Positions 3,651 through 42,559 of a stretch of 64,000 bases of DNA are shown here, piece after piece. The position numbers were made by a program, and so were the translations under genes. Position 1 is the stretch's first letter; every line of letters starts with the position of its first letter. This stretch comes from Capniomyces stellatus (lineage: Eukaryota > Kickxellomycota > Harpellomycetes > Harpellales > Legeriomycetaceae). The stretch spans positions 20,177-84,176 of the forward strand of contig LUVW01000018.1 in the NCBI GenBank assembly GCA_001661515.1, given 5' to 3'. The notes beneath the pieces were generated by a model. That model was not told the DNA's origin. It did no database searches and saw only the letters and a program-made list of their open reading frames with translations.

Positions 3651-6600
3651 ATGGAGGCCTACAACAACAATGTTGGGTTTTGCACTGATGGTTTGGGATA
3701 TGTAAGAATTTTCAAACCAACATACGTGTATATATATATATCAAATATAAAGCTACAAATGAACGGAGTAACTATACCTTTATTGAGTTTTATGAACATA
3801 AATTTTAATTGTGAGTGTGTATTGATAACCAGTTCACTGCTTTTAAAAAACAAAATAGATGTATCTTATGGGATCAGACCACTTCGCAGTTCCTATCTGT
3901 GCTGTCCAGATACCAATTGAGCAGTCAATAAACATGATGTTATTCTGCTATGGGGCGTATCGGCTGATATATCTCAAAGGGCTCAAGCCTATTCCGCCTC
4001 AAGTATTCAAAGACACAAAGTATTGTATTCAAATGAGTTTGATAAGTGCAATGTTTATGGTCAAAGGGGCAGAGATAGTAACGTCTAAAATGATCGGGGT
4101 AGGCTCTAGATTCAATGTAAACACAGCCTCGGCAATCATAGGGTTATTTTCAACGACATTCGCATTTGTGATGCATTACTACGAGCAGTCGCGTTCTTGT
4201 AGTAGATCACATTTTTTGACAATTTATTGGGGTTTGATTCTTGGGAAAATGACGCTGTTGATATACTCTTTAAATATGATTAGGTTTGAAGGTCTAAGAG
4301 TATCAGAACTAATTATATGTGTTGTAGTTGACGCAGTGTTGGTATTATTTGTATGGATTTTAGAATTGTTGGAGAAAGAAAAAATTTATAGATATAAAGT
4401 GGGAGTTGGAGAAGCGAGGCAGAAAAGATCACTTGAAGAGAAATCAAACATATACTCTATTATTATTTTTGGATGGACGAGAGGTCTGTTCAAGTACCGC
4501 AACTACAAAAAAGTGCGGATAGCGGACTTGGACCCAGTACCAAAAACACTGGACTCGGAGAAGTGTATAGAAAGGTTTTCTAAAAACTGGAAGAAGGAGA
4601 TCGAGATCAGGGGAAGTAGTGCAAAGTTATGGAAGGTGATATTTAAGACATTTGGGCACTCAATTATAATTTCTGGGATATATAAGTTTCTTTACGACGT
4701 TTCCCGGTATTGCCTTTTGATTGTGTTCTATTTGTTCTTGGAGGTAATACAGACAAGTTGGATCTGGAAAGAACGTAGGTTTTATTTTGGCTTTTCGATC
4801 ACGTCAGTGTACCTGTGCCTGTCGATTTTCCAGTCATTGTTTATAGCGCAACATTACCAGGTTAGCATGAAATTGAAGCTGAAAGTCAAAATAGTGCTTT
4901 CATCGGCAATATACAGCAAAGCGCTTACAATTCCCAATTCAAAAAGGCTGGGAATGACAAATGATAAAATAGCTAGCCTAGTTAGCAAGGACGTTAAGGA
5001 GATATCAGATCTTGCTGAAAGCATGCATATGCTGTGGAGCACTCCGGCTGTGGTGGCTTTTTCGGTAACTACCTTGGTGTATTCGATGGGAGCGACTTCA
5101 CTTGGGTCTGTGGTGTTAGTAGTTCTGTCTATTCCCATAGTGCGCATTTTTGCAAAGTTGGTCAGTAGCTATAAAGACAAAAGGGATAAAAAGAGAGATA
5201 CGCGAGTGGGAATAATCAAGGAGTATCTTTTAAATGTAAAGTCAATCAAGGAGTATCTTTTAAATGTAAAGTCAATCAAGCTTTTTTCATGGGAAGAATA
5301 TTTCAGAAAAAAGATTAAGAGGATACGAAATAATAAGGAGGTCCCGATGATAAGAAGATACGGGTTACTGCTGACAGCCCAGACGTTTACATTGTTAACA
5401 GTGGTTCTTTCTATTCCTATAGCAGCGTTTACGCTATACCTAATATTTGAAGTGGATTCTGGAAGTGGAAATAGGATACTGGAAACGCTGGTGTATTTTG
5501 CTCTTGTATTAATGGCTCAAATAAGTACGTATGCCACACAGTTTCCAGTTGCTTACAGAGGGGTCAAGGCAGCAAATGGAAGCGCGAAAAGAGTAGTGGA
5601 TTTTCTGTTGATTCAAGATATAGAAAGCATAGCACATGGCAAGGAATACTTTGACGGTTTAAATAGCGAGAAAATAGACCGCTCTAAAGTTAGGGTAATT
5701 AGTATTAAGGGAGGTGATTTTTCTTGGGATTACTCTGAGAAAGGAGACAGTGATAGCATAAAAAAAACCAAAAGTGCTAGTAGTTTTGTAAGCAAAATGC
5801 TTAAAAAAACCTCCACAAAAACCACCAATGAATCGGCCAGTTCAGAAAAAACCAATATCAGTGCAGCCATTGAGGAGGATAAAGGCGGTGAAAGTTGTAT
5901 TGGAAACCAAGATGTTAAACAAAGTGGCACAGAAAGTCCAGATAAAGTAGAAAAACTCAACTGCTTAAAAAACATCGACTTCAGCGCTAACTATGGAGAA
6001 ATGGTGGCTGTTGTGGGGAAAATAGGTTCAGGGAAATCATCGTTGCTATCGGCAATGTTAGGGGAAATGGAAGTGCTGAGAGGAAGCATTGAATTAAAGG
6101 GAAGAGTGGCGTATGTGCCTCAGTCAGCACTGATTATGAACGACACTATACGTGAGAATATTCTTTTTGGAAACAAGTTTGACAAAGAATTTTACCTGAA
6201 AGTCGTAAAGCTGTGCAAACTGGAAAGATATTTTGTTAGGCTTCCTCAAGGAGACTTGACAATAGTGGGCAGAAGCGGAATAAATCTTTCAGGAGGCCAG
6301 GGCACACGGATATCGATGGCCAGAGCTGTGTATTCTAAAGCCCAGGTGTATCTGTTTGACGACCCGCTTGCCAATTTGGACGCTCGTGTTGGATTTAAAA
6401 TTATGAAAAATGTGATTGGAAACAAAGGGTTTCTGAAAGATCATACTCGGATGATGGTGACTAAAACAGTAGTTTATTTGTCTAGTTTTGATAAAATTTG
6501 CGTTATGGACCATGGCTCAATAGTCCAACAGGGAGGTTTTGAAGAGCTTATGGAGAATACGGATGGAATTCTTTACAAACTGCTCTCAACAAAGTACTTT

Positions 6601-8715
6601 AAGGGCACTGAAATAAAGTCGGAAATCGAGCCTGATGGAAAAGAAAAAATCAGGGTTGTTTACAGCTCAAAACTTTTGAGGTTGGACAGCGGGGTATTTA
6701 TTTCAAATAGGAGCATGAACAATTTGTTGGAAAGTAAGTCGTTTGGTCCGCAAGATTCTGACTTTGACGGCAGCGATAATATTTCTTTAGACGCTACCGT
6801 CTACAAAAACTCGAGCACTAACTTGGAGAGTATGTTGGATAACCAAAAGTATGCAGACCCAATCGAGCTAATGAGACTGATGAGCACGCATGACGAAATA
6901 AACAAAGTTGATCGGATAAATGAAGGCAATTTTAAATGGGTGCTAATGTGGAGATACCTAAGATACTCATCATATCTAGGGTTTGTTCTATACTTGGTTG
7001 CTCTTGGATTCTCTCAATCCATAATCGTTGGAGCTGGTGTTTGGGTAGACAGTTATATCAATGTTGATTTCAAGAATGCCACCAAATTCGACATAATACA
7101 GTACTCTTTAATTATCTTTTCGATCACAACTGTTTTTGCACTTTTCTACTCCATCCAGCATCTGTTCATGTGGTGTCTGTGTGCCACCAGTGCTGCAAAA
7201 TCAACACATAAAAGACTCCTCAATTCTGTTATCCGCTCTCCATCGTCGTTCTTTGACGTTACGCTAACAGAAACCATTCTTGATCAATTTAAAGCTGATC
7301 AAGACATCCTTGATTTTACTCTACCAAACACCTTTGACTCTTGGATAGGCTCCACAGTAGCTTCAATTTCTTTCCTCGTTGTTGTTATTGCATCGCTTCC
7401 AGAGTTTGGGTACGCATCCATTCCACTCATTATTGCCATCATCACAATTTACCATTTATACACCAAACCAAGCAGAAAGCTGAAAATTCTTGAAAATAAG
7501 ACAAAATTGGCCATGGAGACCGAATTTGGCGAGCTGTTGGCAGGAATGACATCTTTTCAATCGTATAAAATGACTAGTGAGTTTTACAAAAAGAATCTAG
7601 CTTTACTGAACTACAACATCATGGCAAGCTACCCTCTTTTTTCGCTGAAAAACTGGCTGCGGTTAAGGATAGAATTTATGAGTGTATACCTGATCTTTAT
7701 CGGCTCTCTGATCTCCACTCTTGACATTTTTTTGAAGTTTGACACCGACAAAGATACAATTAGCCCAACTAAAATTGCGCTAGTCACTTCATTCAGTTTA
7801 AGCATAACGCCATTGCTTATTTCTAGCGTTGAAAAGTTTGTTGATTTGGAGTCTATTCTAAACTCTATCCAAAGAAACTTTGAATTCTCTAAACTTCCAA
7901 CAGAATCTCCCCAGATAATACCCGGAAACGAACCCCCTAAGGACTGGCCCCAAAACGGAAACATTGTTTTCAGCAACTACAGTGCCAGATACCGCCCTGA
8001 ATTAGAACCAGCACTGATAGATATCAATCTAAACATTCCTTCAAACTCCAAAATCGGAGTGGTAGGGAGAACCGGGTCGGGAAAGACCAGCTTGGCTCTA
8101 GCATTGTTTAGAATATTTGAAGCCTCCGAGGAATCAATTATCATTGATGGCATTAATGTCAGTGAAATCGGATTGCATGACCTTCGCTCTAAAATGCAGA
8201 TCATTCCGCAGGATCCTGTTCTTATTTCTGGAACTCTGAGAGAAAACCTTGATCCATTTAACGAGTACACAGACTTGGAGATTTGGAAATCACTAAAAGT
8301 TGCTGATATCAAGTCTTGGGCAAGCTCAAGTAGCACAGAAAACCTTACTTATGGGTCCGAGTCTGGCTTGATGATGGTGATCCACTCAAGGGGATCCAAT
8401 CTGTCTATGGGTCAGCGTCAGTTGCTCTGTTTGGCGCGTGCAGTGCTGCACAAGTCAAAGATTCTGATTCTGGACGAGGCAACATCAGCAATCGATGTAT
8501 TGACCAGCCAAAAGGTTCAAGATATAATCAGAACCGAGTTTATGGATTGCACTGTTATCACTATAGCACACAGACTTAAAACGATCATGCTATACGACAA
8601 AATCGTTGTGATTGATGATGGTAGAGTCATAGAGTACGATGATAGAGAAAAGTTGCTGGAAGACCCCGATTCCACTTTTTACAAGTTGGTTAACGATGAC
8701 ATTAGCTTCTCGTAA
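3651..8715 (+). CDS. ABC transporter, ABCC/MRP family (long form with TMD0)
   Basis: Full-length ABCC exporter, the family of yeast Ycf1 and human MRP1, which pump glutathione conjugates and organic anions across vacuolar or plasma membranes. The main exon (3859-8715) encodes 1618 residues. A first exon 3651-3701 (17 residues) spliced phase 0 to 3859 gives the FC..G start typical of long MRPs; it is inferred. Five N-terminal helices form TMD0, then two six-helix domains. NBD1 has Walker A GKIGSGKSS (about residue 720 of the main exon), signature LSGGQ, and a Walker B ending in FDD rather than Glu, as usual in ABCC. Its H-loop His is Lys (VTKT). NBD2 has GRTGSGKTS (about 1402), LSMGQ, LILDEA and the H-loop TIAHR, so it looks catalytic. 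A basic, Ser/Thr-rich insert of about 75 residues separates the NBD1 A-loop from Walker A. The substrate cannot be read from sequence. Confidence 0.93.
5214..5280 (+). repeat. Exact in-frame 30-bp tandem duplication inside the ABC transporter
   Basis: Two perfect 30-bp copies plus 7 bp encode IKEYLLNVKS twice, just before KLFSWEEYF. ABCC relatives have one copy of this intracellular-helix segment, so the duplication adds ten residues to TMD1. Perfect identity implies a recent event or an assembly artefact. Confidence 0.95.
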
Positions 8716-12166: not shown

Positions 12167-15100
12167 ATGGAAAGCGTTAACTATACAGCCCAGAATCCCC
12201 TAAAAGAAATGGATGGGGAGTCCGCTCTGAGAAGCTGCGAGGAGCCGAAAGTTCAAGATACCTACAGCATATTTAGGAACAGCTGTGTAATCACTGTACC
12301 TAAGCGTCACAGAAGCTTCATAACCCGTGCCATTGATAAGTTTGATTTATCGGAAGGTTACAATAATACACCTTTAGAAGAGCTGGTAAAAAGCGATGTT
12401 GGTGTTATGCTCTGCTTTCTTGACTACTTTATAAACAGTTTTGAACATGTCCATAGCAGCAAGAATGACTTTGTTGGGCTATTGAGGATTCTAGTATCAC
12501 AGATATATACGCGGTATATGGAAAATAACGACGTACACGTGGCCACCGAGGAGTTTGATTTCGAAACAAAAAAAAGATTTATAAACACGTTTTACAAATC
12601 AGAGCTCATATTGAATAAAAAAGCAGGTGATTTTGAAGATAGCAAAAGCCAACCTGATGAATCAAAAAGTGCCCTGATGAACTTGACTCTGGTTAACAGA
12701 GCAGCGCTTTTGGGCACGTTTGGGGGCCAAGGAATCACAGACAGCTACATAGAAGAAATCAGAGATTGTTACGAAACGTATGCGCCGATTGTTGGGCCAT
12801 TTTTGCTAAAGATGTCTGACTTTTTGAACAACTTGTCAAAAAAGACCAACAAACACTTTTTCTTGTCGCACGGCCTGGATATTATGAAGTGGATAACCGC
12901 AGACGAAAGTTTGGTCCCCGATAAAGGCTACATAACCCAGTCTCCAATAAGCTTTCCATTGATCGGACTGATCCAGCTGCTAAACTTTTTGGTGATTTGC
13001 AAAAGCTTAAACAAACATCCAAATTGGGTTGCAAGCAGGTTCAAAGAGTTTGCCGGGCACAGTCAAGGCACAATCGCGGCGGTAGCAATAGCCTCATCAA
13101 CAGACGAAGATAGCTTTTACAAAAATGCTGAAAAGGCCCTTGGCTTGCTATTCATTATTGGAACCAGATCGCAAATAGAGTTCTCGCAGGAAGCTCTAAA
13201 CCCAAACACAATAAAGGACTCTATTAAAAGTGGCTTTGGAAGCCCAACTCCAATGCTGCTAATAAGCAATATAAAAAAGCAGATGCTAATAAACAACATA
13301 CAGAGAATCAACCAGCATTTGCCAGTAGATAGACACATATCAATCTCAATCAAGAACAGCATCAGGTCGTACGTAGTATCAGGACCATCATCAACCCTAT
13401 ACTCGCTATCCAAGGCTATCGATGCATTACGAGCAAAGAGTGACGTTGACCAGTCAAGAGTGCCATTCTCGAGCCGAAACGCGGTAATCAACATTGACTT
13501 TTTGCACGTGTCTGCGCCATTCCACAGCAAATACTTGGCAGGTTCCGTAGAGAAGATACTTGGCGATGCCACAGAGCACGGCTTTTTGTTCAGCAGCAAT
13601 GATCTGAATATTCCAGTAGTATCCTCGTTTAACGGAGGCAAGCTGAACAAGTGCACAGATTTGACGGAGGTTATTGTCAGCGAGATCTGTGTAAAGGAGT
13701 TGGATTGGACAAAGGCTACAGAAATCAAAGAAATCACACATATAGTAGACTTTGGTCCAGGCGGAATTTCAGGAATTGGTGCATTGACATCAAACAACAA
13801 AGAGGGAACAGGAGTTGATGTGATATTTGCTGGGGTGAATGAGCGCAAGCTGCGAAACACCAAGATAATGACAGAAATATTTAACCGAAACACAGAGCTG
13901 GTCCAGTTTTCGCAAAATTGGGAAAAGGAGTTTGGGCCAAAGCTAGTTGTCAACAAGTACAGCAACAAGATATTTGTAAACACTCGAATGAGCCAGATGT
14001 TGGGCAAGCCCCATCTGATGGTTGCTGGAATGACGCCATCAACAGTGGGTTCAGAGTTTGTATCGGCAGTCACAAATGCAGGATACCACATTGAGCTGGC
14101 AGGAGGCGGCCATTTTAGCGAAGAGTCGGTCAGAAATGTGGTTGAGGAAATCAGAAACAAGGTTGACCCTGGGAACGGAATAACAATGAATGTTATTTAT
14201 CTAAACGCGAGAGTAGCTGGGCTCCAGATCCCGCTGTTGCAAACTCTATGCAGGGAAGGAGCCCCAATAGATGGAATCTGTATTTCAGCTGGAGTCCCCT
14301 CACTAGAAACCTGCAACGACCTGATTGATGGTATGCTGGCTGCGGGAATGAAGCATATATCTTTCAAGCCAGGATCCACCGACACCATTCGCCAAGTAGT
14401 CAGAATTGCTAGTAGCAACCCCAAAATACACGTGATAATCCAGTGGACTGGCGGAAGGGGAGGGGGTCACCATAGCTTTGAGGACTTTAACCATCCAATA
14501 CTGGACACATATGGAGAGATTCGACAGTGCAGAAACGTCATACTAGTTGCTGGCTCAGGGTTTGGAGGTGCTGAGGACACTTTGCCGTATATTACTGGAG
14601 ACTGGAGTCTGCAGTTTGATAAAGCCAGAATGCCGTTTGACGGGATACTGCTGGGGTCCAGGGTAATGGTTGCCAAGGAGTGCCCAACTAGCGACAAGGT
14701 AAAGCAGCTGATTGTTGACACGCCAGGTGTATCAGACGCCGAGTGGGAAAAGACTTACAAGGGAGCAGCAGGCGGGGTGATTACGGTTGTTTCTGAGCTT
14801 GGACAGCCAATACACATGGTGGCAAATAGAGGAGTAATGCTGTGGAGCGAATTTGACCAAACAATATTCAATCTGCCAAAGGACCAGCGACTGCCAGTGA
14901 TCAACAAGAAGAGAGACTATATTATAAAACGACTAAACGAGGACTACCAGAAGCCGTGGTTTGGAAGGAAAGAAAGTGGTTTGGTTTGCGATCTTGGCGA
15001 CATGACATACTCTGAGGTTGTTTATAGACTGATTGATCTGATGTACCTGAAGAAGAGCGGCAGCTGGATCAACGAGTCGTACAGAGACATAGTTGGCGAT

Positions 15101-18100
15101 ATGCTAAGAAGGATTGACGAGAGGTTCAGTATGACTTTGCACGAGATGATTTTGCAGTCAAACGAGCAGCTCAACAACCCATTTGAAATCTCGCAAAAGG
15201 TTATAGACGCATTCCCAGAGTCAAAGTCCAGGATCTTGTTGGTTGAGGACCTGCACTATTTTATAAACATATGTTCAACACCTGGCCGCAAACCAGTTCC
15301 GTTTGTTCCTGTGCTTGACGAGAACTTTGACGTTTGGTTTAAAAAGGATGGTTTGTGGCAGTCAGAGTTCCTAGAGTCTGTTGTGGGTGAAGACGAGGGA
15401 CGGGTTTGTATTCTGCAGGGTCCGGTTTCAATCAGATACTGCGACAAAGTCAACGAGCCAGTGGCCGAGATACTCGACAGCATCAACAATAGCCACATTG
15501 AATCAATTGTAAAGCTTGTTTATGGTGGGGATAAAAGCAAAATACCCGCAGTCGAGTATCTGAGCCCATTTTCAGAAAACACCTGCAGTCTAGAGTCAGA
15601 CAACTTGAAGATTGAAAAAAGCAATAGAACAACGGTTTATAAGGTGGGGGCAGACATAGGCGATTTGGAGTCTAATGAGGTGTGGTTTGAGCTGCTATCT
15701 GGCTCGAGTCTATCTTGGCTGTCAGCACTCTTGAGGTCAAAAACCATCTATCGAGGAGACAAGGTCACGCCCAACAATATCCGATCTATAGTAGCGCCAC
15801 AGCCAAACACCACTGTCACTATTATCAGCGATGACAACGATGATAAGTTGCCGATGTACTTGATGGTTGAGAATAACAAAGGGTTCAAGAGCATTGAGAT
15901 GTTTTATAACCAGGCAACAAGGACCATCAAGGTAGTGATGCACGACAACCCAAACAGCAACGTTTACAGTTTGGAGTTCAACTTTACGTACAACCCAACG
16001 CACTCGTACTCATTGATCCATGAGATAGTTGAGGGCAGAAACAGGAGAGTCACCGAGTTTTACTCCAAGCTGTGGATCCACAACCCTGAATACTTGACTG
16101 AAAAAGTCACAGACGATGGAACTTTTACAATCCAGCACAGCAATATCAGAGTGCTGCCCAAGGACATTGCAAGGTTCTGTCAGGTGGTTGGAAACAACTC
16201 GAACAGCTACTCGAACAAAGAAGGAAAAGGGTACACAAGAATACCAATGGACTACACGTTCAATATGCTGTGGGGAGCCATTTGCTCGGTTTCAAACAAC
16301 TGCGCAGACGCAAACATGCTGGATATTGTTCACTACTCAATAAGCTTTGAGTCACTAGTGAATTACGAGCTGCTAAAAACTAGCGATGAGTTGAATGCTG
16401 TTACCAGGGTTTTGTCAGTAACAAACGACTCTATGGGGAAAATGATGACCATTGAAGGTGTTTTGATGAAGGGCACAACGCCACACTACAGACTTGTGAC
16501 GTCTTCGCTGTACCGAGGAAGCTATACTGATTATCAAACCACGTACCGCAAAGAGGACGAGACGCCTATAAAGTTAACGCTGGCTGAGGAAAAGGACATT
16601 TCCACCTTGTTTAGTAAAGAGTGGTTTATTGTTAATGATGACAGCGAAGAACTAATTAAACTGGGGTCATCGTTGGTATTTAGACTGAATAGTGAGATCA
16701 AGTACAGAAACACCAAGGAGTTCAACAGTGTAAAGACTTGTGGGACAGTCGAGCTGATAACCCAGAACAGAACGTTTGTGCAGGTAGCAACTGTAGATTA
16801 CGCCAGCGGACATGCCCATGGAAACCCGGTTTTGGGGTACTTGAATAGGAACGGAGAAAAGTATGACCAGGCAATTATGTTTGAAAACGGTGGCTATTCT
16901 ATTATTCCCCAGGAGGATCGGTATTTGGCAACATGTTACGCCCACAGCTCAAACCGGGAGTTTGCATTGATAACAGGAGACTTGAATCCAATACACACTA
17001 ACAAGTACTTTGCCAATCTTAGCGGACTGCCTGGAACTATTGTGCATGGAATGTGGACGTCTGCAGCAGCAAGAAAAGTGGTGGAGATCTTTGCAGCCGA
17101 CAACCACCCAGAACGGGTAGCTACTTACAATGTTAGGTTTTTGGATATGGTTCTGCCTGGAGACAAGCTGGAGACAAAGCTGACACATATTGGAATGAAG
17201 TATGGGCGAAAGGTCATTAAGGTTGAAACATTTAATGAGGCTGGACACAAGATTCTGGAGGGGACATCTGAGGTGAATCCGCCCAAGACAGCATACGTGT
17301 TTACTGGGCAGGGGTCGCAGGTGGCAAACATGGGCATGGACCTGTACAACAGCTCGGACAACATCAAGAAGCTGTGGGACGAGGCCGACCGCCACATGCA
17401 AAACATGTATGGATTCTCGCTACTAGAAATACTGGTTCTTAACCCCAAAGAGAAAACGGTCTACTTTGGCGGTGTCAAGGGAGCAAAGATTAGAGAGAAC
17501 TACATGAACATGAAGTACGAGATGATAGACAGTAACGGAAAGGTGCAGACTTTGAGTCTGTTTCCAGACATCAACAGGAGCTGTACATGTTACACATTTA
17601 GATCGCCAACTGGGCTGCTGTCGGCTACGCAGTTTACCCAGCCAACATTGATGTTGTACGAAATGGCAGCATTCCAGGACATGATTGACAAACAGTTGGT
17701 TCACAGGGACATGATATTTGCAGGACACTCGCTTGGTGAGTTCTGTGCACTTTTGGCAATTGGCCAGGTAGTGAAGCTTGAGACTATGCTTGAACTGGTG
17801 TTTTATCGTGGATTGGCAATGCAGATGTCGGTTGAGCGTGACGAGTTGGGATTCAGTGAGTATGGAATGGTTGCTTTTAACCCGGCCCGGATATCGCCAG
17901 GATTTATGGAGAGTGGGTTTGACATTGTGGTCAAATCAATCAAAAAGTTTGGAAATGGGCTGATTGAAATAGTCAACTACAACGTGGAAAACTGGCAGTA
18001 TGTGATTGCTGGTGAGCTGAGACTTCTTTCAGTGTTTGCCAAGGTTACTGATTTGCTCGTTAAAAACAAGTCTACCCTATTGCAGCTCAGTTCTAAGGCA

Positions 18101-21100
18101 GGAAATTTGGAAAGCGAGTTTAGCGGTTTGGTTGAAAGGATCGTGGTTGAGGTGATTGAGCTAGTGGACAGAGAGAAGAAAAGAGAGAAGGGCAGAATTG
18201 TGCTGGATAGAAGTCAGTGCACTATACCATTGCCAGGAATCGATGTGCCGTTCCACTCGTCGTTTTTGCTGCCAGGGGTAAACCTGATGCGCGAGTTTAT
18301 GCACAAAACAATCAGTGTTGGCAATGTAGACGTTGATCTGCTGGAAAACAGGTACATTCCAAATGTGGTTGCCAGACCGTTTAAAGTGGACAGAGGATAC
18401 TTTGAGTTGGCGTACAAAGCAACCAGCTCATTGAATCTGAAAAAGACATTGGATACATGGAACGATTCGATACTGAATGTTGGTTTAGAAAAAAAGAGGC
18501 TGGGATACGTGCTGCTTGTTGAGTTGCTGTCGTACCAGTTTGCCAGTGCGGTAAAGTGGATTGAGACTCAGGACGTGATGTTTAGAGACTATGGAATTGA
18601 ACAGCTGATTGAAATTGGACCAGGCCCAATACTGACAGGCATGGCGTCCAGAACGCTTAAATCAAAGTACGCCGAGTACGACAATGCAAAACTGATAAAA
18701 CGGACCTTGCTGAACTATTCTAGCGATAAGGATGCTTTGTACTTTAACGTCAAACAGGATTCAAGCTCAAACTTGGCTGAAGTTCCAGCTGAAAAAAGTG
18801 TCAAGCCCAAGTCTGCAGCCAAGGAAAAGAAAAAGAAATTGCCAAAAACACAAGTAGCTGAAGTCCCCAAAGTCCAAAAAAGTGCTGCGGTTGCAGCTGA
18901 GTCAACGGGGGGTGCCCCTGAAGCCAAAGCACCAAGCTTTGCCGTTCAGTCTGGTGGAGTGGCTAACCCGATTGAGGACGCAAAGATCAAATCAAGTGAG
19001 ATTATAATATCTATTATCGCGCAGAAGCTGAAGAAAAGCTTTGAGGACATTCCAGCAACCAAGTCGATCAAGGAGCTGGTGAACGGAAAGTCGGCTATGC
19101 AGAACGAGATAGTTGGTGATTTGCAAAAGGAGTTTGTGAACCAGATCCCCGATAAGGCTGAGGAGCTGCCACTGAGCGACCTGTTTAACATGGTTCACAA
19201 CGACTCTGGCAAATTGGGTGCATTCTCGTCAGTAAAGGTTTCAAGATTGGTAAACTCAAAAATGCCAGGCGGGTTCAGTCTTCCAATGATCAAAACGCAT
19301 CTAACCAAAACCTATGGACTGGGATCATTGAGATCAGATGCCATGCTGCTGCTGGGAACAACTTTGGAGCCGGAGACACGGGTTGGGTCAGAAAGCGAAG
19401 CCTTTGTGTGGCTGGCATCGGTTGCTAAACAGTATGCGGCAATAAACAGTTTAGAGTACACAATGTCTTCGGGCAGTTCAGGACAAGGACCCTCGAGCTC
19501 GCAAAGTGTTTCTATAAACTCTGAAGAGTTCAAAAAGTATCAAGAGACTGAGCGTAAAATGATACTGTCTCAATTCAACTCAATGGCAAAGTACCTGGAT
19601 ATTGACACCAATGAAAGTTATCAAACAATAAACGACACCAAAGATAACCTAAATGCACTGCAAGCACAGCTTGATCTATGGACCAAGGAGCAGGGCGAGG
19701 CTTATGCTGAGGGAATAAAGCCTGTGTTTAGTGTAGAAAAGGTTAGGATATTTGACTCTTACTGGAACTGGGCTCAAAGCAATGCTGAATCTATGTTCTA
19801 TACGCTTTTTACAGGAGGGTATTTAAACAACATGGCTGCATTTGAAAAAGAATGCAGAGCCCTGATAAACTGTTCCAGTATTAGGTTGGTTGATTTCCTA
19901 ACGTACAAATTAAAACATGTTGATTCAAATCTATTCTCTAAATGTAAATCTTCACTTTCAGTTGGTGACAAAAAAGCAATTATTCAGACTGTTATTGATA
20001 AATGCAGAGATAACGTGAACAAACCTCCGTTTTACTTTGGCACAACCGAGTTCTTGGGACCCAACACCAGCATCACCAACAAAGGCGAGATAGTGTATAC
20101 TGAGCTGCCTAGGAGCGGTATCAACGACTGCAGAGACTATTTGGAGTCGATTGTTAAGGGCTTTCCAAGTGTCAAGTTCCAGTACGAAGGTGTCGAGGAC
20201 TTGGTTTCAGAGCCTAGCATGGATAATATGTTGGAGCTTATTAAGACGCAGGAGGAGTTTAGGGGAATTGATGTTAGCACGCTTTCAAGGCTTATAGCAA
20301 TGTCCAAGGGAGGCAAACACGCTTCAAGTGATACTCCTCATGTAAAGCCTAAAACTTTAGGAACTGATTTGAAAAGCTACAAAGACTATGTTGAGTTTTC
20401 CAGGTCGATTCAAGTTGAGGGGAGAACGCCGTTTTTAAATCTCCGAAGAAAAGTGGCGTCTGACTTTTGGGAGTACAATACTGAACAGACTTCGAGGTAC
20501 TTGGGTGCATTGCTTGACATTTCAAACCATGGAATATCGTTTGTTGGTAGAAATGTGTTGATCACAGGCTGTGGAAGAAACTCAATTGGAATGGCTGTTT
20601 TAAAGGCGCTTATATCAGCTGGTGCCAATGTTGTGGTAACCACGTCAAGCTTTAGCTATGATGTAGTAAAGATGTACGAAGATGTTTACAAGACTTTGGG
20701 CTCCAAAAACTCGTCGTTATTCGTGGTTCCGTTTAACCAGTCCTCGCAAACCGATGTCAACAATCTGATTGATTTTATCTATGAATCTAAAGAAAACGGG
20801 GGGCTGGGGCTGGACTTGGACGTATTTGTGCCATTTGCTGCTATTTCTGAGACTGACCGTGATATTTCTGAAATAGATTCCTACTCTGAGCTATCGCATC
20901 GAACAATGCTTACAAATTTAATCAGAATGGTTGGTAGAATAAAGTTCAACAAGCAAAAGCAGAATATACTAAACAGGCCTACTCAGGTGATTGTCCCACT
21001 TTCGCTTAATCACGGAGCATTTGGAAACGATGGTTTGTACGCTGAGAGCAAAGTTGGTCTCGAAACACTGTTTGATAAATGGAGAGCTGAAACGTGGAGA

Positions 21101-24100
21101 GATTTCATTAGTATTTCAGGCACGGTTGTGGGATGGGCAAGGGGCACTTCGCTGATGAACCAAAATAACATTCTGGCTCAAGGGATGGAAAAGCATGGAG
21201 GGAGGACCTTTTCGACCGAAGAAACAGCGTTTAATATTATTGGGCTGCTACATCCCGAGATTAGAGCAATGTGCGATAGGAGCCCAATTTACGCGGACAT
21301 AAGTGGTGGTTTTGGGATATTGGAGGGATTCAATGACTGTTGCATTAAAATAAGAGACAGTATAATGAGCCAAAGCGCCACTCAGAAACAGATTGTTGCC
21401 GAAACGTCGTTTGACTTTAACCTAGTGGAGGGCGACCATGTAGAGAGACTTTACAAGACAGTAGAATCACATCCCAAAGCAAAGCTGGTGCTTGACTTTC
21501 CTGAGCTTAAGGCGCAAGACGAGCTAAAGGACAAGAGCTATATGAAGGGCATGTTGAACTTGGAAAAAACAGTGGTTATAGTTGGCTATGGCGAAGTAAG
21601 TCCGTTTGGAAACGCAGAAACTCGTTGGGACATGGAAGTAAACGGAGAGTTTTCCAATGAGAGCTGCATAATGCTAGGTTGGATCATGGGCCACATTAAA
21701 TATTACAACGGTAGACTGAAAGACGGGTCTTTTTACATTGGCTGGGTAGATTTTAACACCGAACAACCGATTGAGGACAGAAAGATAAAGGCGGTATACG
21801 AAAAAAAGATTATTGAGGACTCGTGTATCCGTATAATGGATCCAGATCGTATTTGGGGCTATGACCCAAATGTCAAAACAACGATCCAAGAGATAGAAAT
21901 CAAAGAACATATGCACCCAATAATCACAACATTTGATGAGGCGGAGCATTTCAAGCTAAGAAACGGCGACAAGGTAAAGACGTGGAAAAATGATGACGAC
22001 TCCTGGTCGGTACAGTTTCTGCCGGGTGCTAGGCTCTATTTTCCTAAAGCGCGCAAATTCGACTCAAATGTTGCAGGGCTACTGCCCAAAGGCTGGTCGG
22101 CACAAAGGTTTGGAATTGATAAAGAAACGGTTAACCAGGTTGACAACCTGACTCTTCACGTGCTGGTCTCCACCTGTGATGCCTTGATGAGGGCTGGAGT
22201 TGAAGATCCGTACGAATTTTACAAGTATGTCCATTTGACCCAGGTTGGAAACTCTGTTGGATCGTGTTTGGGGGGAGCAAAATCCTTTGTTGATACTGTT
22301 ATTGATAGGTTTAGGGATACAGATGTTCAAAAGGATATTCTGCAGGAAACATTCCCCTCGTCAATGTCGGGATGGGTTAATTTGCTTCTTTTGTCGTCGG
22401 CAGGGCCAATTAAGGTTCCAAGTTTGTCATACTCTACTGGAGTTGCATCTATCAGCATAGCCGTTGAGTCTATACAAACAGGAAAAGCTAAAATCATGGT
22501 TGCTGGAAGCCAGGACGATTTTTTGGAGGAAACAAACACAGAGCTAGTATTCAATGAAGAACTTGTCTCTGCTTCTAAAGAACTAAGAGCTGGCAGAACA
22601 ACCAAAGACAACACTCGTCCACTTACAAGCACGAGCGATGGGTTCATAGAGTCACAAGGTTCTGCCACTATGATACTAATGTCTGCTGCAATCGCATTGG
22701 AGATGGGTGTTCCGATTTATGGTGTTGTGGCGTACTGCAACACAAGCTCGAGCAAGCCAGAAAACTCAATAAATGACCCAGGAAATGGCATCTTATCAAG
22801 TGCCCGAGAATTCAACTATTGTTCTAACAATCCTCTGTTAGACTTTAGCTACCGCAAACGCCAGCTGTCAAAGAGATTAAAAGATATAAAGGAATGGGTT
22901 AAAACCGAGCTGGATTCTTTAAGCTCAGCAAGCAGCAATGACTACTTTCAGACAAAGAACATTGATTTTGAAAGTGCAGAAAAAACTAGCAAAACCACCG
23001 GCTCATGTGAGGCTGCGCAGATGCTAGACGACAAGCTGAACTGCATTCAGTATGAAGCAGATGCGATGGCGAGGGATGCTGTCGACTATTGGGGAAGCGA
23101 CTTCTGGAAGGAAGAGTATGGAATCGCGCCTATAAGGGGTGCGCTGGCCTCGTTTGGGTTATCTGTTGACGATATTGACATTATCAGTCTTTATGCTAGT
23201 TCAATCAAAAATATTGACGATTTGGAGATGAATATGATAAATAATCAGTTTAAACACTTGGGGAGGTCCAAAGGAAACGAGTGCCCGGCTGTTTGCCAGA
23301 AAGGGCTGATCGGACACACCAAAAGTGCATCGGCTTCTTTTGAGCTCAACGGGTTGGTGCAGTCTATTTGCTCGGGCATTGTTCCTGGGAACCGAGTTTC
23401 AGACAACATTTCTAGTGACTATAAATCCCACGAGTATATTTTTCATCCTAGAAAAACGTACAAAAGGCCCATGATCAAAGCTGGTATGCTGAAGTCGTTT
23501 GGAAAGAACAACAGTTCTGGTGAGATTATCGTTGTCCACCCTGATTATGTTCTAGCCTCGCTTGATGAGAACGTATATAAAGACTATAAAGTCCGTGTGG
23601 TAGGTAGACAGAATACAGCCAACAGATACCTACAAAACACACTAACAGGATCCAAGCTACACGTAAACATCAAAGTCAACCCACCATTTGACGAGAGCAT
23701 TGAGGAACAGGTATACCTCAACCCTAACGCTCGTGTAGAGTATGATCCCGATACCAACAGCTACTACTTTAAAAAAGTTGATCAACCAACACAAAGAACG
23801 CCAAGCTCTCGTTATATTACCGAGTTCAAGAAAGAAGCCTGCACAGATCCGGTGCAGCCTGTTGCTTCTAGTGGTTTAATACAGGGTGTTGGAATGGATA
23901 TAGAGGTGACAACCGCAATAAACATTGACAACGACAACTTTATTGAGCGGAACTTTACCAAAAACGAAATCGAATACTGTTTGAAAAAACCAAACTCCCG
24001 ATCTCGTTTCACAGGCAAATGGTGTGCAAAAGAAGCTGTTATAAAAGCGATCACCAATTTTAACGACCAAACCAACCCAAACCAGAATCTATGGACCAAG

Positions 24101-24286
24101 GGATCCGCTGCACCATTGGCAGATATTGAAATAGTGGAGCGTGATGGCCAAGATGGCACAAAATTGATTACTGCCAGCTTCCATAATGATGTTCAGAAAA
24201 TTGTAGAAAAGGTTGGCATTAAACATACCAGCATAACTGTAAATTTGACTGATTCACAAGCAGTAGCCGTCGCTATCGTCAGCTAG
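12167..24286 (+). CDS. FAS: Fungal type I fatty acid synthase, fused beta-alpha, with an atypical ketosynthase site
   Basis: One intronless frame of 4039 residues with both fungal FAS subunits in order, fused near residue 2110. Beta part: acetyltransferase (GHSQG, Ser299), enoyl reductase (VAGMTP near 617; GGRGGGHHSF near 762), dehydratase (GDLNPIH near 1609) and malonyl/palmitoyl transferase (GHSLG, Ser1855). Alpha part: Lys/Pro/Ala-rich linker, acyl carrier domain (GKS, Ser2309), ketoreductase (LITGCGRNSIG near 2800; YAESK, Tyr2958 and Lys2962), ketosynthase, and C-terminal phosphopantetheinyl transferase (GMDIE, Asp3911 and Glu3913; WCAKEA). It should build palmitate and stearate in the cytosol. 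The oddity is the ketosynthase: GPIKVPSLSYSTGV puts Tyr3422 at the catalytic Cys, and SLYASS puts Tyr3676 at the first catalytic His; the second His (GHTK, His3717) remains. The frame is otherwise intact, so this may be a paralogue with altered function rather than a pseudogene. Confidence 0.97.
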   Translation: MESVNYTAQNPLKEMDGESALRSCEEPKVQDTYSIFRNSCVITVPKRHRSFITRAIDKFDLSEGYNNTPLEELVKSDVGVMLCFLDYFINSFEHVHSSKNDFVGLLRILVSQIYTRYMENNDVHVATEEFDFETKKRFINTFYKSELILNKKAGDFEDSKSQPDESKSALMNLTLVNRAALLGTFGGQGITDSYIEEIRDCYETYAPIVGPFLLKMSDFLNNLSKKTNKHFFLSHGLDIMKWITADESLVPDKGYITQSPISFPLIGLIQLLNFLVICKSLNKHPNWVASRFKEFAGHSQGTIAAVAIASSTDEDSFYKNAEKALGLLFIIGTRSQIEFSQEALNPNTIKDSIKSGFGSPTPMLLISNIKKQMLINNIQRINQHLPVDRHISISIKNSIRSYVVSGPSSTLYSLSKAIDALRAKSDVDQSRVPFSSRNAVINIDFLHVSAPFHSKYLAGSVEKILGDATEHGFLFSSNDLNIPVVSSFNGGKLNKCTDLTEVIVSEICVKELDWTKATEIKEITHIVDFGPGGISGIGALTSNNKEGTGVDVIFAGVNERKLRNTKIMTEIFNRNTELVQFSQNWEKEFGPKLVVNKYSNKIFVNTRMSQMLGKPHLMVAGMTPSTVGSEFVSAVTNAGYHIELAGGGHFSEESVRNVVEEIRNKVDPGNGITMNVIYLNARVAGLQIPLLQTLCREGAPIDGICISAGVPSLETCNDLIDGMLAAGMKHISFKPGSTDTIRQVVRIASSNPKIHVIIQWTGGRGGGHHSFEDFNHPILDTYGEIRQCRNVILVAGSGFGGAEDTLPYITGDWSLQFDKARMPFDGILLGSRVMVAKECPTSDKVKQLIVDTPGVSDAEWEKTYKGAAGGVITVVSELGQPIHMVANRGVMLWSEFDQTIFNLPKDQRLPVINKKRDYIIKRLNEDYQKPWFGRKESGLVCDLGDMTYSEVVYRLIDLMYLKKSGSWINESYRDIVGDMLRRIDERFSMTLHEMILQSNEQLNNPFEISQKVIDAFPESKSRILLVEDLHYFINICSTPGRKPVPFVPVLDENFDVWFKKDGLWQSEFLESVVGEDEGRVCILQGPVSIRYCDKVNEPVAEILDSINNSHIESIVKLVYGGDKSKIPAVEYLSPFSENTCSLESDNLKIEKSNRTTVYKVGADIGDLESNEVWFELLSGSSLSWLSALLRSKTIYRGDKVTPNNIRSIVAPQPNTTVTIISDDNDDKLPMYLMVENNKGFKSIEMFYNQATRTIKVVMHDNPNSNVYSLEFNFTYNPTHSYSLIHEIVEGRNRRVTEFYSKLWIHNPEYLTEKVTDDGTFTIQHSNIRVLPKDIARFCQVVGNNSNSYSNKEGKGYTRIPMDYTFNMLWGAICSVSNNCADANMLDIVHYSISFESLVNYELLKTSDELNAVTRVLSVTNDSMGKMMTIEGVLMKGTTPHYRLVTSSLYRGSYTDYQTTYRKEDETPIKLTLAEEKDISTLFSKEWFIVNDDSEELIKLGSSLVFRLNSEIKYRNTKEFNSVKTCGTVELITQNRTFVQVATVDYASGHAHGNPVLGYLNRNGEKYDQAIMFENGGYSIIPQEDRYLATCYAHSSNREFALITGDLNPIHTNKYFANLSGLPGTIVHGMWTSAAARKVVEIFAADNHPERVATYNVRFLDMVLPGDKLETKLTHIGMKYGRKVIKVETFNEAGHKILEGTSEVNPPKTAYVFTGQGSQVANMGMDLYNSSDNIKKLWDEADRHMQNMYGFSLLEILVLNPKEKTVYFGGVKGAKIRENYMNMKYEMIDSNGKVQTLSLFPDINRSCTCYTFRSPTGLLSATQFTQPTLMLYEMAAFQDMIDKQLVHRDMIFAGHSLGEFCALLAIGQVVKLETMLELVFYRGLAMQMSVERDELGFSEYGMVAFNPARISPGFMESGFDIVVKSIKKFGNGLIEIVNYNVENWQYVIAGELRLLSVFAKVTDLLVKNKSTLLQLSSKAGNLESEFSGLVERIVVEVIELVDREKKREKGRIVLDRSQCTIPLPGIDVPFHSSFLLPGVNLMREFMHKTISVGNVDVDLLENRYIPNVVARPFKVDRGYFELAYKATSSLNLKKTLDTWNDSILNVGLEKKRLGYVLLVELLSYQFASAVKWIETQDVMFRDYGIEQLIEIGPGPILTGMASRTLKSKYAEYDNAKLIKRTLLNYSSDKDALYFNVKQDSSSNLAEVPAEKSVKPKSAAKEKKKKLPKTQVAEVPKVQKSAAVAAESTGGAPEAKAPSFAVQSGGVANPIEDAKIKSSEIIISIIAQKLKKSFEDIPATKSIKELVNGKSAMQNEIVGDLQKEFVNQIPDKAEELPLSDLFNMVHNDSGKLGAFSSVKVSRLVNSKMPGGFSLPMIKTHLTKTYGLGSLRSDAMLLLGTTLEPETRVGSESEAFVWLASVAKQYAAINSLEYTMSSGSSGQGPSSSQSVSINSEEFKKYQETERKMILSQFNSMAKYLDIDTNESYQTINDTKDNLNALQAQLDLWTKEQGEAYAEGIKPVFSVEKVRIFDSYWNWAQSNAESMFYTLFTGGYLNNMAAFEKECRALINCSSIRLVDFLTYKLKHVDSNLFSKCKSSLSVGDKKAIIQTVIDKCRDNVNKPPFYFGTTEFLGPNTSITNKGEIVYTELPRSGINDCRDYLESIVKGFPSVKFQYEGVEDLVSEPSMDNMLELIKTQEEFRGIDVSTLSRLIAMSKGGKHASSDTPHVKPKTLGTDLKSYKDYVEFSRSIQVEGRTPFLNLRRKVASDFWEYNTEQTSRYLGALLDISNHGISFVGRNVLITGCGRNSIGMAVLKALISAGANVVVTTSSFSYDVVKMYEDVYKTLGSKNSSLFVVPFNQSSQTDVNNLIDFIYESKENGGLGLDLDVFVPFAAISETDRDISEIDSYSELSHRTMLTNLIRMVGRIKFNKQKQNILNRPTQVIVPLSLNHGAFGNDGLYAESKVGLETLFDKWRAETWRDFISISGTVVGWARGTSLMNQNNILAQGMEKHGGRTFSTEETAFNIIGLLHPEIRAMCDRSPIYADISGGFGILEGFNDCCIKIRDSIMSQSATQKQIVAETSFDFNLVEGDHVERLYKTVESHPKAKLVLDFPELKAQDELKDKSYMKGMLNLEKTVVIVGYGEVSPFGNAETRWDMEVNGEFSNESCIMLGWIMGHIKYYNGRLKDGSFYIGWVDFNTEQPIEDRKIKAVYEKKIIEDSCIRIMDPDRIWGYDPNVKTTIQEIEIKEHMHPIITTFDEAEHFKLRNGDKVKTWKNDDDSWSVQFLPGARLYFPKARKFDSNVAGLLPKGWSAQRFGIDKETVNQVDNLTLHVLVSTCDALMRAGVEDPYEFYKYVHLTQVGNSVGSCLGGAKSFVDTVIDRFRDTDVQKDILQETFPSSMSGWVNLLLLSSAGPIKVPSLSYSTGVASISIAVESIQTGKAKIMVAGSQDDFLEETNTELVFNEELVSASKELRAGRTTKDNTRPLTSTSDGFIESQGSATMILMSAAIALEMGVPIYGVVAYCNTSSSKPENSINDPGNGILSSAREFNYCSNNPLLDFSYRKRQLSKRLKDIKEWVKTELDSLSSASSNDYFQTKNIDFESAEKTSKTTGSCEAAQMLDDKLNCIQYEADAMARDAVDYWGSDFWKEEYGIAPIRGALASFGLSVDDIDIISLYASSIKNIDDLEMNMINNQFKHLGRSKGNECPAVCQKGLIGHTKSASASFELNGLVQSICSGIVPGNRVSDNISSDYKSHEYIFHPRKTYKRPMIKAGMLKSFGKNNSSGEIIVVHPDYVLASLDENVYKDYKVRVVGRQNTANRYLQNTLTGSKLHVNIKVNPPFDESIEEQVYLNPNARVEYDPDTNSYYFKKVDQPTQRTPSSRYITEFKKEACTDPVQPVASSGLIQGVGMDIEVTTAINIDNDNFIERNFTKNEIEYCLKKPNSRSRFTGKWCAKEAVIKAITNFNDQTNPNQNLWTKGSAAPLADIEIVERDGQDGTKLITASFHNDVQKIVEKVGIKHTSITVNLTDSQAVAVAIVS

Positions 24287-24913
24287 ACGTCTGAGCCATT
24301 GATTATTTCACTTTAACTTTAACTTTAACTTTTACTCTTACTTTAACTTTAGCTTTAACTTTTACTTTTACTTTTAATTTTACTTTTACTTTTACTTTTA
24401 CTTCATAATAATAATATATCACTTTTAAATAGCACATGTCATGGCCTGAATTACATCGGTGTTATCATACTAGTTATTGCTGTGACTTACAACCATCAAG
24501 AATAAATTACTAGCGACTTCTTGTTGATTGGTATAAATTTGGTCAATTCCAAGTTGTTCTTTTGAATATGCAAAGTAAAGCCGATTCTATTACACTTTCC
24601 CAAACCAAGCCAAAATATTTTAATACCGATCCACGCAAATAGAGCTAGTAGTATAAGAACATTGACTCAAATACACATTAGTTATAACTGTTAAAAATCC
24701 ATATTGACGGCTTAAATAGCTTGAATAAATAGCCAATTGACAAATTTGAGTTTATAAAAAATACCTAAAACTATTTTAAATAATACACAAGAAAATAAAT
24801 AATAAAAAGGCAGTTTAAACACACCAAGCGAATGGAATAATTGCGCTAACCCGAATATCAGTTTGCATAACCGCAAAATTGGTTATCACCTACCTATACT
24901 TTACAAATATAGT
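24287..24913. other. Intergenic region between convergent FAS and SNARE genes
   Basis: Shared 3' flank. It holds a hexamer-like CTTTAA/CTTTTA repeat tract at 24310-24404 and otherwise featureless AT-rich DNA. Confidence 0.6.
24310..24404. repeat. CTTTAA/CTTTTA low-complexity repeat
   Basis: About fifteen imperfect six-base units of CTTTAA or CTTTTA just downstream of the FAS stop codon. Confidence 0.85.
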
Positions 24914-41302: not shown

Positions 41303-42559
41303 ATGGCTTCACAAAGACTTAACCAGATCGCCTCCCACTTTTCAGGAGATTCAAAGAACTCTGTTCAAATCGGCGTCAAGAATCCTGAAGATGTTGTTAT
41401 CGTCTGTGCTTTGAGAACAGCGCTGACTAGAGCACGCCGTGGTGGGTTTAAAGACACATCGGCAGAGTACTTGCTTTCAACCGTACTTAGAGGTGTAGTT
41501 GAAAAAGCCAAGCTCGAGCCAGCACTTGTTGACGATATTGTTGTAGGAAACGTATGCCCACCAGGCGGTGGTGCTGCTTTGGCACGTATGGCTATGTTGT
41601 ATGCTGGGTTCCCAGAATCCGGAAGTGTTATGACTGTCAACAGACAATGCTCAAGTGGCCTGCAAGCCGTTTCGCAAATTGCATCGGCAATCAGAGACGG
41701 AACTATTGAAATTGGTATTGCTGCTGGAGTTGAAAGCATGACCCAGTACTTTGGACCAAAGAACAACATGACCCGCGCCGAGTTTGACCAGGATATGCTT
41801 AAACACAAAGCCGCCGCTGACTGTTTGCTTCCTATGGGAATCACATCAGAAAACGTTGCTAGTGACTTTGGCGTCAGCCGTGAGAAACAAGACAGATTCG
41901 CTGCATCGTCGTTCGATAAGGCCACCAAGGCTCAAAAGGCTGGCCACTTCAAAGAGGAAATCCTCCCAGTCAAGACCAAGTACATTGACGCCGATGGCAA
42001 AGTACAAACCATCATTGTATCAGAAGACGACGGCATCCGTGCTGGAACTACATTTGAAACTCTTAGCAAACTTAAACCAGCCTTCATTCCAAACGGTGGA
42101 TCCACCGCAGGAAACTCATCGCAAGTATCTGACGGTGCTGCCGCTGTTCTGTTGATGAAGCGCAAGAAGGCCATCGAGCTTGGTCTCCCAATTGAAGGAA
42201 AATTCATCACTTCTGCTGTCATCGGTGTACCACCACGCATCATGGGTGTTGGACCAGCATACGCCATCCCACTTGCCGTGAAGAAGGCCGGAATCACAAT
42301 CGAGGATCTTGATATCATTGAGCTGAACGAAGCCTTTGCCTCCCAAGCCATTTACACCATAGAAAAACTCAACCTGAACATTAACAAGGTCAACCCAAAG
42401 GGAGGTGCCATCGCTTTTGGCCATCCTCTCGGATGCACTGGTGCTAGACAAGTCTCTACCCTTTTGACTGAACTCAAACGCCAAAACAAGCGCGTTGGAG
42501 CTACATCCATGTGTATTGGTTCTGGTATGGGTATGTGCGGTATTTTTGAAAGCGAATAA
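41303..42559 (+). CDS. POT1: Peroxisomal 3-ketoacyl-CoA thiolase
   Basis: Intronless, 418 residues, normal for the family. It catalyses the last step of fatty acid beta-oxidation: thiolytic cleavage of 3-ketoacyl-CoA to acetyl-CoA and a shortened acyl-CoA. The N-terminus has RLNQIASHF, matching the extended PTS2 peroxisomal signal (R-L-x5-H-F) read by Pex7. Catalytic residues are visible: nucleophile Cys116 in NRQCSSG, His374 in GHPLG, and Cys404 in CIGSGMG. Codon use is more GC-rich at third positions than in neighbours, as expected for a strongly expressed gene. The PTS2 separates it from cytosolic acetoacetyl-CoA thiolase. Confidence 0.96.
   Translation: MASQRLNQIASHFSGDSKNSVQIGVKNPEDVVIVCALRTALTRARRGGFKDTSAEYLLSTVLRGVVEKAKLEPALVDDIVVGNVCPPGGGAALARMAMLYAGFPESGSVMTVNRQCSSGLQAVSQIASAIRDGTIEIGIAAGVESMTQYFGPKNNMTRAEFDQDMLKHKAAADCLLPMGITSENVASDFGVSREKQDRFAASSFDKATKAQKAGHFKEEILPVKTKYIDADGKVQTIIVSEDDGIRAGTTFETLSKLKPAFIPNGGSTAGNSSQVSDGAAAVLLMKRKKAIELGLPIEGKFITSAVIGVPPRIMGVGPAYAIPLAVKKAGITIEDLDIIELNEAFASQAIYTIEKLNLNINKVNPKGGAIAFGHPLGCTGARQVSTLLTELKRQNKRVGATSMCIGSGMGMCGIFESE

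Follow-up and report, generated by a model that had tools for sequence, protein, structure and literature searches.

A single-chain fatty acid synthase (FAS) encoded in the genome of Capniomyces stellatus is, as read from its sequence, a pseudo-ketosynthase paralogue within a FAS family in which a sister copy has lost metal-site residues of its phosphopantetheine transferase (PPT) domain, and the function proposed for it below is conditional. The gene lies at 12167-24286 of the window, which is the whole stretch of 64,000 nucleotides that was analysed (C10:20177-84176; C labels are contigs of the assembly searched, 24.5 Mb in 59 contigs), and all coordinates given for its parts are on the + strand. 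Its uninterrupted frame (4039 aa) has 4039 codons without a stop and contains no N. Pfam recognises 14 families in this chain, which are those of a fused yeast-type FAS: FAS_N, SAT, the Fas1-AflB-like helical, meander, thioesterase-like insertion, MaoC and acyl transferase families, together with the alpha ACP, FAS_I_H, adh_short, both ketosynthase (KS) halves, ACPS and adh_short_C2, the last with a score under its own cut-off. Solved fungal chains match it with E=0, the beta chain over residues ~80-2100 and the alpha chain over residues ~2110-4037, and the domain order is that of the beta plus alpha chains of fungal type I (yeast-type) FAS. The sequence-only reading had held the motifs of AT, ER, DH, MPT, ACP, KR and PPT to be intact. 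For the first six, the catalytic motifs that were checked, by comparison with the paralogue on contig C7, are all in place. They include the active Ser in GHSQG (residues 297-301) of the acetyl transferase (AT) domain core (Pfam SAT, residues 185-436; 12719-13474), the ACP serine Ser2309 in NGKSAMQNE (19091-19093), and TGCGRNSIG and YAESK of the aligned ketoacyl reductase (KR) region (residues 2781-3060; 20507-21346). In the PPT domain, located by Pfam and alignment at 23885-24283, the statement holds for GVGMDIE and WCAKEAV, with Asp3911 and Glu3956 kept, and fails for the SISH motif, whose His is replaced by Leu4027 (24245-24247). About 20 bases past the FAS stop codon stands a hexamer array of the TTTTAC/TTTAAC type (24306-24403, 16.3 units by TRF).

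The KS region (residues 3161-3800; 21647-23566), delimited by Pfam and alignments, has lost its catalytic residues. It was compared with five references, namely the solved alpha chains 7bc4, 6u5w and 4v58, which we take to be of fungal origin, the bacterial sequence L021 and the paralogue C7. In all five, Tyr3422 (TAC, 22430-22432) aligns without gaps with the active-site Cys of GPIKTPVGACAT, and Tyr3676 (TAT, 23192-23194) aligns with the first catalytic His in SFHGTSTK/V. The second catalytic His is retained as His3717 (CAC, 23315-23317), and so is Lys3712 (23300-23302), these Cys, His, Lys and His positions being the catalytic residues of a KS. The gating loops of the KS, as defined in PMC7138838, were mapped onto the window KS by inspection of the alignment. 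Ser3529 (22751-22753) stands for an invariant Asp taken by inspection as the one that starts loop 2, and Lys3780-Asn3781 (23504-23509) stand for Phe-Gly of loop 1, so that SFGFGQ reads SFGKNN. Besides D3529S, the other losses at reference-invariant positions are A3421S, A3423S, G3677A and T3678S, and GRSVPAPG has become ENSINDPG. Eight KS positions were scored, namely Cys, His, Lys, His, the loop-2 Asp and the Gly-Phe-Gly of loop 1; five of them are lost in the window chain and none in the sister half on contig C3. The five references agree at 226 columns, and from these the window KS departs at 78 and the C3 KS at 57, with 34 common to both. The replacement of Cys and of the first His by Tyr, with the second His surviving, and the change of neighbouring active-site residues had all been claimed from the sequence and are confirmed by codons and alignments. 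So is the claim that no single sequencing error or frameshift lies behind them, because 78 of 226 invariant columns deviate in a continuous frame, the changes affecting both catalytic codons and numerous positions within the motifs; this cause is ruled out. A check for another Cys taking over found no substitute within the Cys motif of the window KS. The FabF profile TIGR03150 gives 115.4 bits to C3, 107.9 to C7 and 68.0 to the window. The Pfam KS models separate the copies poorly, with 47.8, 63.4 and 41.9 bits for ketoacyl-synt and 56.6, 34.1 and 35.0 for Ketoacyl-synt_C in C3, the canonical C7 and the window, respectively. An AlphaFold model of the window KS from a two-row alignment is weak (pLDDT 34). 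The chain does not have a KS with Cys-His-His (and Lys), and by these residues it is a FAS homologue that would not make a complete FAS alone.

The genome holds at least two complete FAS copies (C10 and C7), one split copy (C1/C3) and one decayed copy (C35), these counts being lower bounds because the search lists score best candidates only. A protein search with the window KS gave, among the matches listed, the window itself, C3:18917-20584 (-) and C7:363097-364740 (+). The copy at C7:353248-365223 (+) is a complete FAS with canonical KS and PPT, whose uninterrupted frame of 3992 codons has GPIKIPVGACAT, SFHGTSTK, GHPKGAA and the PPT motifs in place. The C3 part is an open 3' half of 1782 codons and one holding N, which begins at N just before the ACP region, and its KS retains all four catalytic residues, Cys-His-Lys-His. 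Directly next to its broken end, at C3:23747-24500, lie two pieces of trypsin-like genes (named by eye), each of which stops at a single N, and the scaffold order at this place is doubtful. The search with the beta part added, among the matches listed, C1:1-1830 (-), which is an open 5' FAS part running off the contig end, and C35:34.2-35.6 kb. The latter belongs to a fragmented fourth copy with stops at ~32.1-35.6 kb, which looks like a pseudogene. Among its 3'-half pieces the PPT end is closer to C3 (97% DNA identity) and the KR closer to the window gene (91% vs 82%), so this copy (L031) is a mosaic of window-like and C3-like parts; it adjoins a long N run (37065 onward). Separate FabF-type KS genes serve mitochondria, and a genome search with PF00109 and PF02801 added, among the matches listed, only such a gene, in pieces suggesting introns (C2:507.6-510 kb), and a frame of the window (41303-42559), 17 kb downstream, which was first matched as a ketosynthase and proved to be a thiolase by profile check. 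A scan of contigs from other genomes returned one relative, L021, from a bacterial MAG, in which the Cys is present. This contig, titled Deltaproteobacteria, encodes at 1-2370 the KS portion of a FAS of the yeast type, whose Cys and His residues are canonical and whose best segment shares 56% identity with C7; next to it lies a radical-SAM-like gene, named by eye. The sequence-only reading had offered a paralogue with a new role, a KS supplied in trans or an assembly-line partner to a normal FAS. Of this, the paralogy stands, given C7 and C1/C3 in the same genome, as does the normal FAS elsewhere, complete in C7 and as a half with the four residues in C3; the roles are taken up in the readings weighed below.

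The sister copy C3 differs from the window gene in its PPT domain, where GVGVDVEL is replaced by KIGSAVVP and W(S/C)AKEAV by LAAKKAV. The Asp and Glu of the presumed metal-binding site are thereby gone (D3911A and E3956K in window numbering), and the window keeps both. The SISH His, replaced by Leu in the window, is kept in C3. Pfam ACPS scores 56.1 bits in C7 and 48.5 in the window and has no match in the C3 PPT at E<=1, and a six-frame genome search with it at E<=0.001 returned C7, C10, C13 and C21 only, with nothing at C3. TIGR00556, whose cut-off is 45.35 bits, gives 97.2 to C7, 58.9 to the window and 36.4 to C3. The case for PPT loss in C3 is built on the metal-site residues and on these two models. 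Counts of changes lend no support to a reciprocal decay, as C10 deviates at 20 and C3 at 26 of 58 invariant PPT positions (p=0.36), which is no difference. Bacterial AcpS models give C3 and the window 40.6 vs 38.8 (NF011254), 28.6 vs 22.5 (NF000831) and 22.9 vs 20.7 bits (TIGR00516), all below cut-off. A reciprocal loss of KS in C10 and PPT in C3 would not be clean, because the window PPT has lost the SISH His and some AcpS models score C3 equally high. The PPT domains of both C10 and C3 may be weak, and a composite PPT site across the two chains is conceivable, since C10 is without the His that C3 has and C3 without the Asp and Glu that C10 has.

The central part of the window gene, from the end of AT through ER, DH, MPT and ACP to the start of the helical region (13355-19533), is probably near-identical in the sister copy, with 1 mismatch in 1339 comparable bases. 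These bases cover both ends of the ~6.2-kb tract only (13355-14095 and 18936-19533), the sister's middle being unassembled. C1 shares 47-82% of bases per 100 with the 5' part of the window gene up to ~13400, and over the 741 bases that lead up to the contig end (13355-14095) it differs by 1 mismatch. C3 has no mismatch in 598 bases from 18936 to 19533 and is divergent afterwards. Both outer ends of the tract are sharp, one within AT (residue ~396) and the other past ACP (residue ~2456). Outside it, identical residues between C10 and C3 amount to 34% in the helical region, 73% in KR, 51% in KS and 29% in PPT. In full length, the 4.8 kb that separate the compared ends occur once in the assembly, and elsewhere there are 89-95% pieces on C35 and 64-80% on C7. 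The simplest reading of this sequence pattern is that C1 and C3 would be the 5' and 3' halves of one third gene, whose middle would have collapsed into the window copy. The near-identity at the tract ends would come from recent gene conversion, the direct mismatch count behind this proposal being limited to 1339 bases. The sisters have lost different residues, C10 in KS and C3 in the PPT metal site, and their central part is apparently recently homogenised; the sequence-only reading had foreseen neither.

A stop-free frame alone is no sign of selection on the KS, because the PPT domain lies downstream of it. At the 226 invariant KS columns the window has 44 private changes and C3 has 23 (p=0.014). 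Inside seven active-site motif blocks, whose limits were guided by family motifs but also set in sight of the alignment and are partly post hoc, 50 of 86 positions deviate in the window and 19 of 86 in C3, whereas outside them the figures are 28 and 38 of 140. Private changes number 36 in the window vs 5 in C3 inside the blocks and 8 vs 18 outside (Fisher p=2.7e-6). When the columns are instead split by a set distance (+-5 to +-20 residues) from the four catalytic residues, the sign of the bias is unchanged and significance is not reached (Fisher p 0.14-0.40), so that the statistic for an active site dismantled on a kept scaffold hinges on the chosen blocks. Window-private changes are clustered, forming 18 adjacent pairs where 8.4 would be expected, and 2 of 5000 shuffles give as many; those of C3 form 6, against 2.3 (77 of 5000). 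It is likely that the active site of the window KS has been selectively dismantled and the remainder kept, and its fold would be under continuing selection. In a KS tree of seven rows C10 and C3 are split from the other five with 100/100 support; the branch of C10 (0.88) is the longest of the seven, that of C3 measures 0.55, and the program treekit flags C10 as a long branch of unsure placement. Fourfold sites of the KS differ between C10 and C3 at 94 of 135. NG86 dS between them, computed for the 3' parts, exceeds 1.9 or is too large to be estimated in all 10 parts, and no dN/dS ratio is quoted because dS is saturated; YN00 (Biopython) yielded an estimate for 1 of the 30 comparisons.

The reading placed foremost here, which is put forward tentatively and falls short of being probable, proposes that the window KS would be a pseudoenzyme with a structural role, in barrels that also contain a KS-competent chain, the sister C1/C3 in the first place and C7 in the second. 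Its fold would be retained as a structural part despite the dead site, because the KS dimer would form the core of the alpha wheel and bring the PPT domains together in assembly. Condensation would be carried out by the C3-type KS or that of C7, the PPT activity needed for ACP activation would come from the window chain or C7, and both chains would contribute AT, ER, DH, MPT and ACP. A dead KS can still be relevant as a scaffold, and PMC7300031 describes 'physical and/or metabolic crosstalk' when wild-type and engineered FAS share a yeast cell, also for a single-chain version; from these two points we infer mixed barrels. The isolated yeast PPT is active as a trimer according to PMC6972935, so that the KS would not be strictly required for PPT activity, which weakens the argument from reciprocal loss. 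In favour of mixed barrels count the loss of KS residues in the window chain and of PPT metal-site residues in C3, the supported split of these two from the other KS rows, the concentration of the window's KS changes in the motif blocks, and the stop-free 4039 codons despite the saturated silent sites between C10 and C3. Against them count the fixed-distance statistic, the PPT counts, the AcpS and Pfam KS scores and the long C10 branch, all given above, as well as that C7 alone could do all fatty-acid synthesis, and that the pairing of the 5' and 3' halves as C1/C3 is itself presumed. A stricter version, which appears rather unlikely, makes the mixed barrels obligate, every KS dimer joining an active KS to a dead, CLF-like one, with ACP activation from the other chain, gene conversion keeping the domes alike and perhaps a fatty acid of unusual length made beside the C7 FAS. 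The two sisters would in that case have the same domes and different wheels.

It could also be argued that the window gene is a degenerating duplicate, the load being carried by C7 while the sisters drift, and that the loss of its KS is a first step to a pseudogene. The fragmented copy with stops on C35, the long KS branch, the loss of the SISH His in PPT and the excess of private changes at invariant KS columns all speak for this. Nevertheless, the frame is unbroken, unlike that of C35, although silent sites are saturated against C3; the checked motifs of the six other domains are in place, outside the motif blocks the window KS preserves invariant residues about as well as C3 does, and the near-identical tract points to a sequence exchange with a second copy not long ago, which together make such a drift unlikely. 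Another proposal is that barrels of the window chain alone have acquired a new function, taking over a preformed beta-ketoacyl or acyl chain made by a different condensing enzyme and then only reducing, dehydrating or transferring it. This would agree with the presence of the AT, ER, DH, MPT, ACP and KR motifs and with the separate FabF-type KS gene on C2. It is quite improbable, as the closed reaction chamber of fungal FAS makes hand-over in trans hard, and as no condensing enzyme but the thiolase was found among the window frames reaching 120 or 150 aa, where genes cut by introns may escape.

The assembly itself has to be considered as well, since the window gene could be a 5'/3' chimera in which two loci were fused at the near-identical tract, or else the tract could be a collapse. 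The end of C1 and the N of C3 both fall inside the tract, and a full copy of its middle is present only once in the assembly. However, no break or N interrupts the 3' half (19534-24286), and the window KS has no near-identical copy in the assembly, the next best being 49% identical. The dead KS would therefore stand whichever 5' half it is joined to, and an artefact is the least probable of these explanations, being very unlikely.

Among known systems, the window chain resembles fungal type I FAS, with AT-ER-DH-MPT-ACP-KR-KS-PPT in one chain and E=0 to solved alpha and beta chains. It differs in that the C10 KS is without the Cys, the first His, the gate Phe/Gly and the loop-2 Asp, and in that C10 coexists with a sister that has lost the PPT metal-site residues instead. 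The other likeness is to KS/CLF of type II PKS, an obligate heterodimer that sets chain length, in that the same genome has one KS with catalytic residues (C3) and a related KS without them (C10). In type II PKS the KS and CLF genes are adjacent and Gln is the usual replacement of Cys in CLF, whereas C10 and C3 are domains of megasynthase chains on separate contigs, the lost Cys is a Tyr and the heterodimer is a candidate. Eukaryotic PUFA synthases, for example those of thraustochytrids, have KSB-CLF in subunit B, with a CLF domain beside the KS domain (PMC9702510). They share with the present case a eukaryotic megasynthase context with a KS-type and a CLF-type domain, and differ in holding both in one PKS-like polypeptide and not in two paralogous yeast-type FAS chains. 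In the open-licence literature, within titles and starts of abstracts, neither a fungal FAS with a dead KS nor a division of KS and PPT between paralogues was found among the matches listed. Gene duplications in core fatty-acid metabolism in Mucorales and FAS loss in Glomeromycotina are mentioned in PMC10629195.

The fungal FAS barrel is commonly treated as built of identical asymmetric units, and a pair of KS loss and PPT loss, if true, would suggest that the barrel can share out its activities between paralogous chains. Such a pair would put to a natural test if a single KS site in each dimer suffices, what the KS dimer contributes to PPT activity and if a dead KS can shape the product as CLF does. 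It would also mean that gene conversion acts on part of a megasynthase gene while the remainder diverges. Obligate mixed barrels, if true, would be a type I eukaryotic counterpart of KS/CLF.

Around the FAS gene, window frames that reach 120 or 150 aa look like ABC transporter, alcohol dehydrogenase, RCL1-like and Crooked-neck-like genes, among others, all named by eye except the thiolase. The ABC-transporter-like frame (3859-8715) contains a perfect 30-base tandem duplication at 5214-5280, which repeats KEYLLNVKSI. At 123-530 there are overlapping arrays of a 153-base unit, with ~1.9-2.0 copies each by TRF, which sit in a minus-strand open frame (2-1249) that by eye encodes a cysteine-rich repeat protein.
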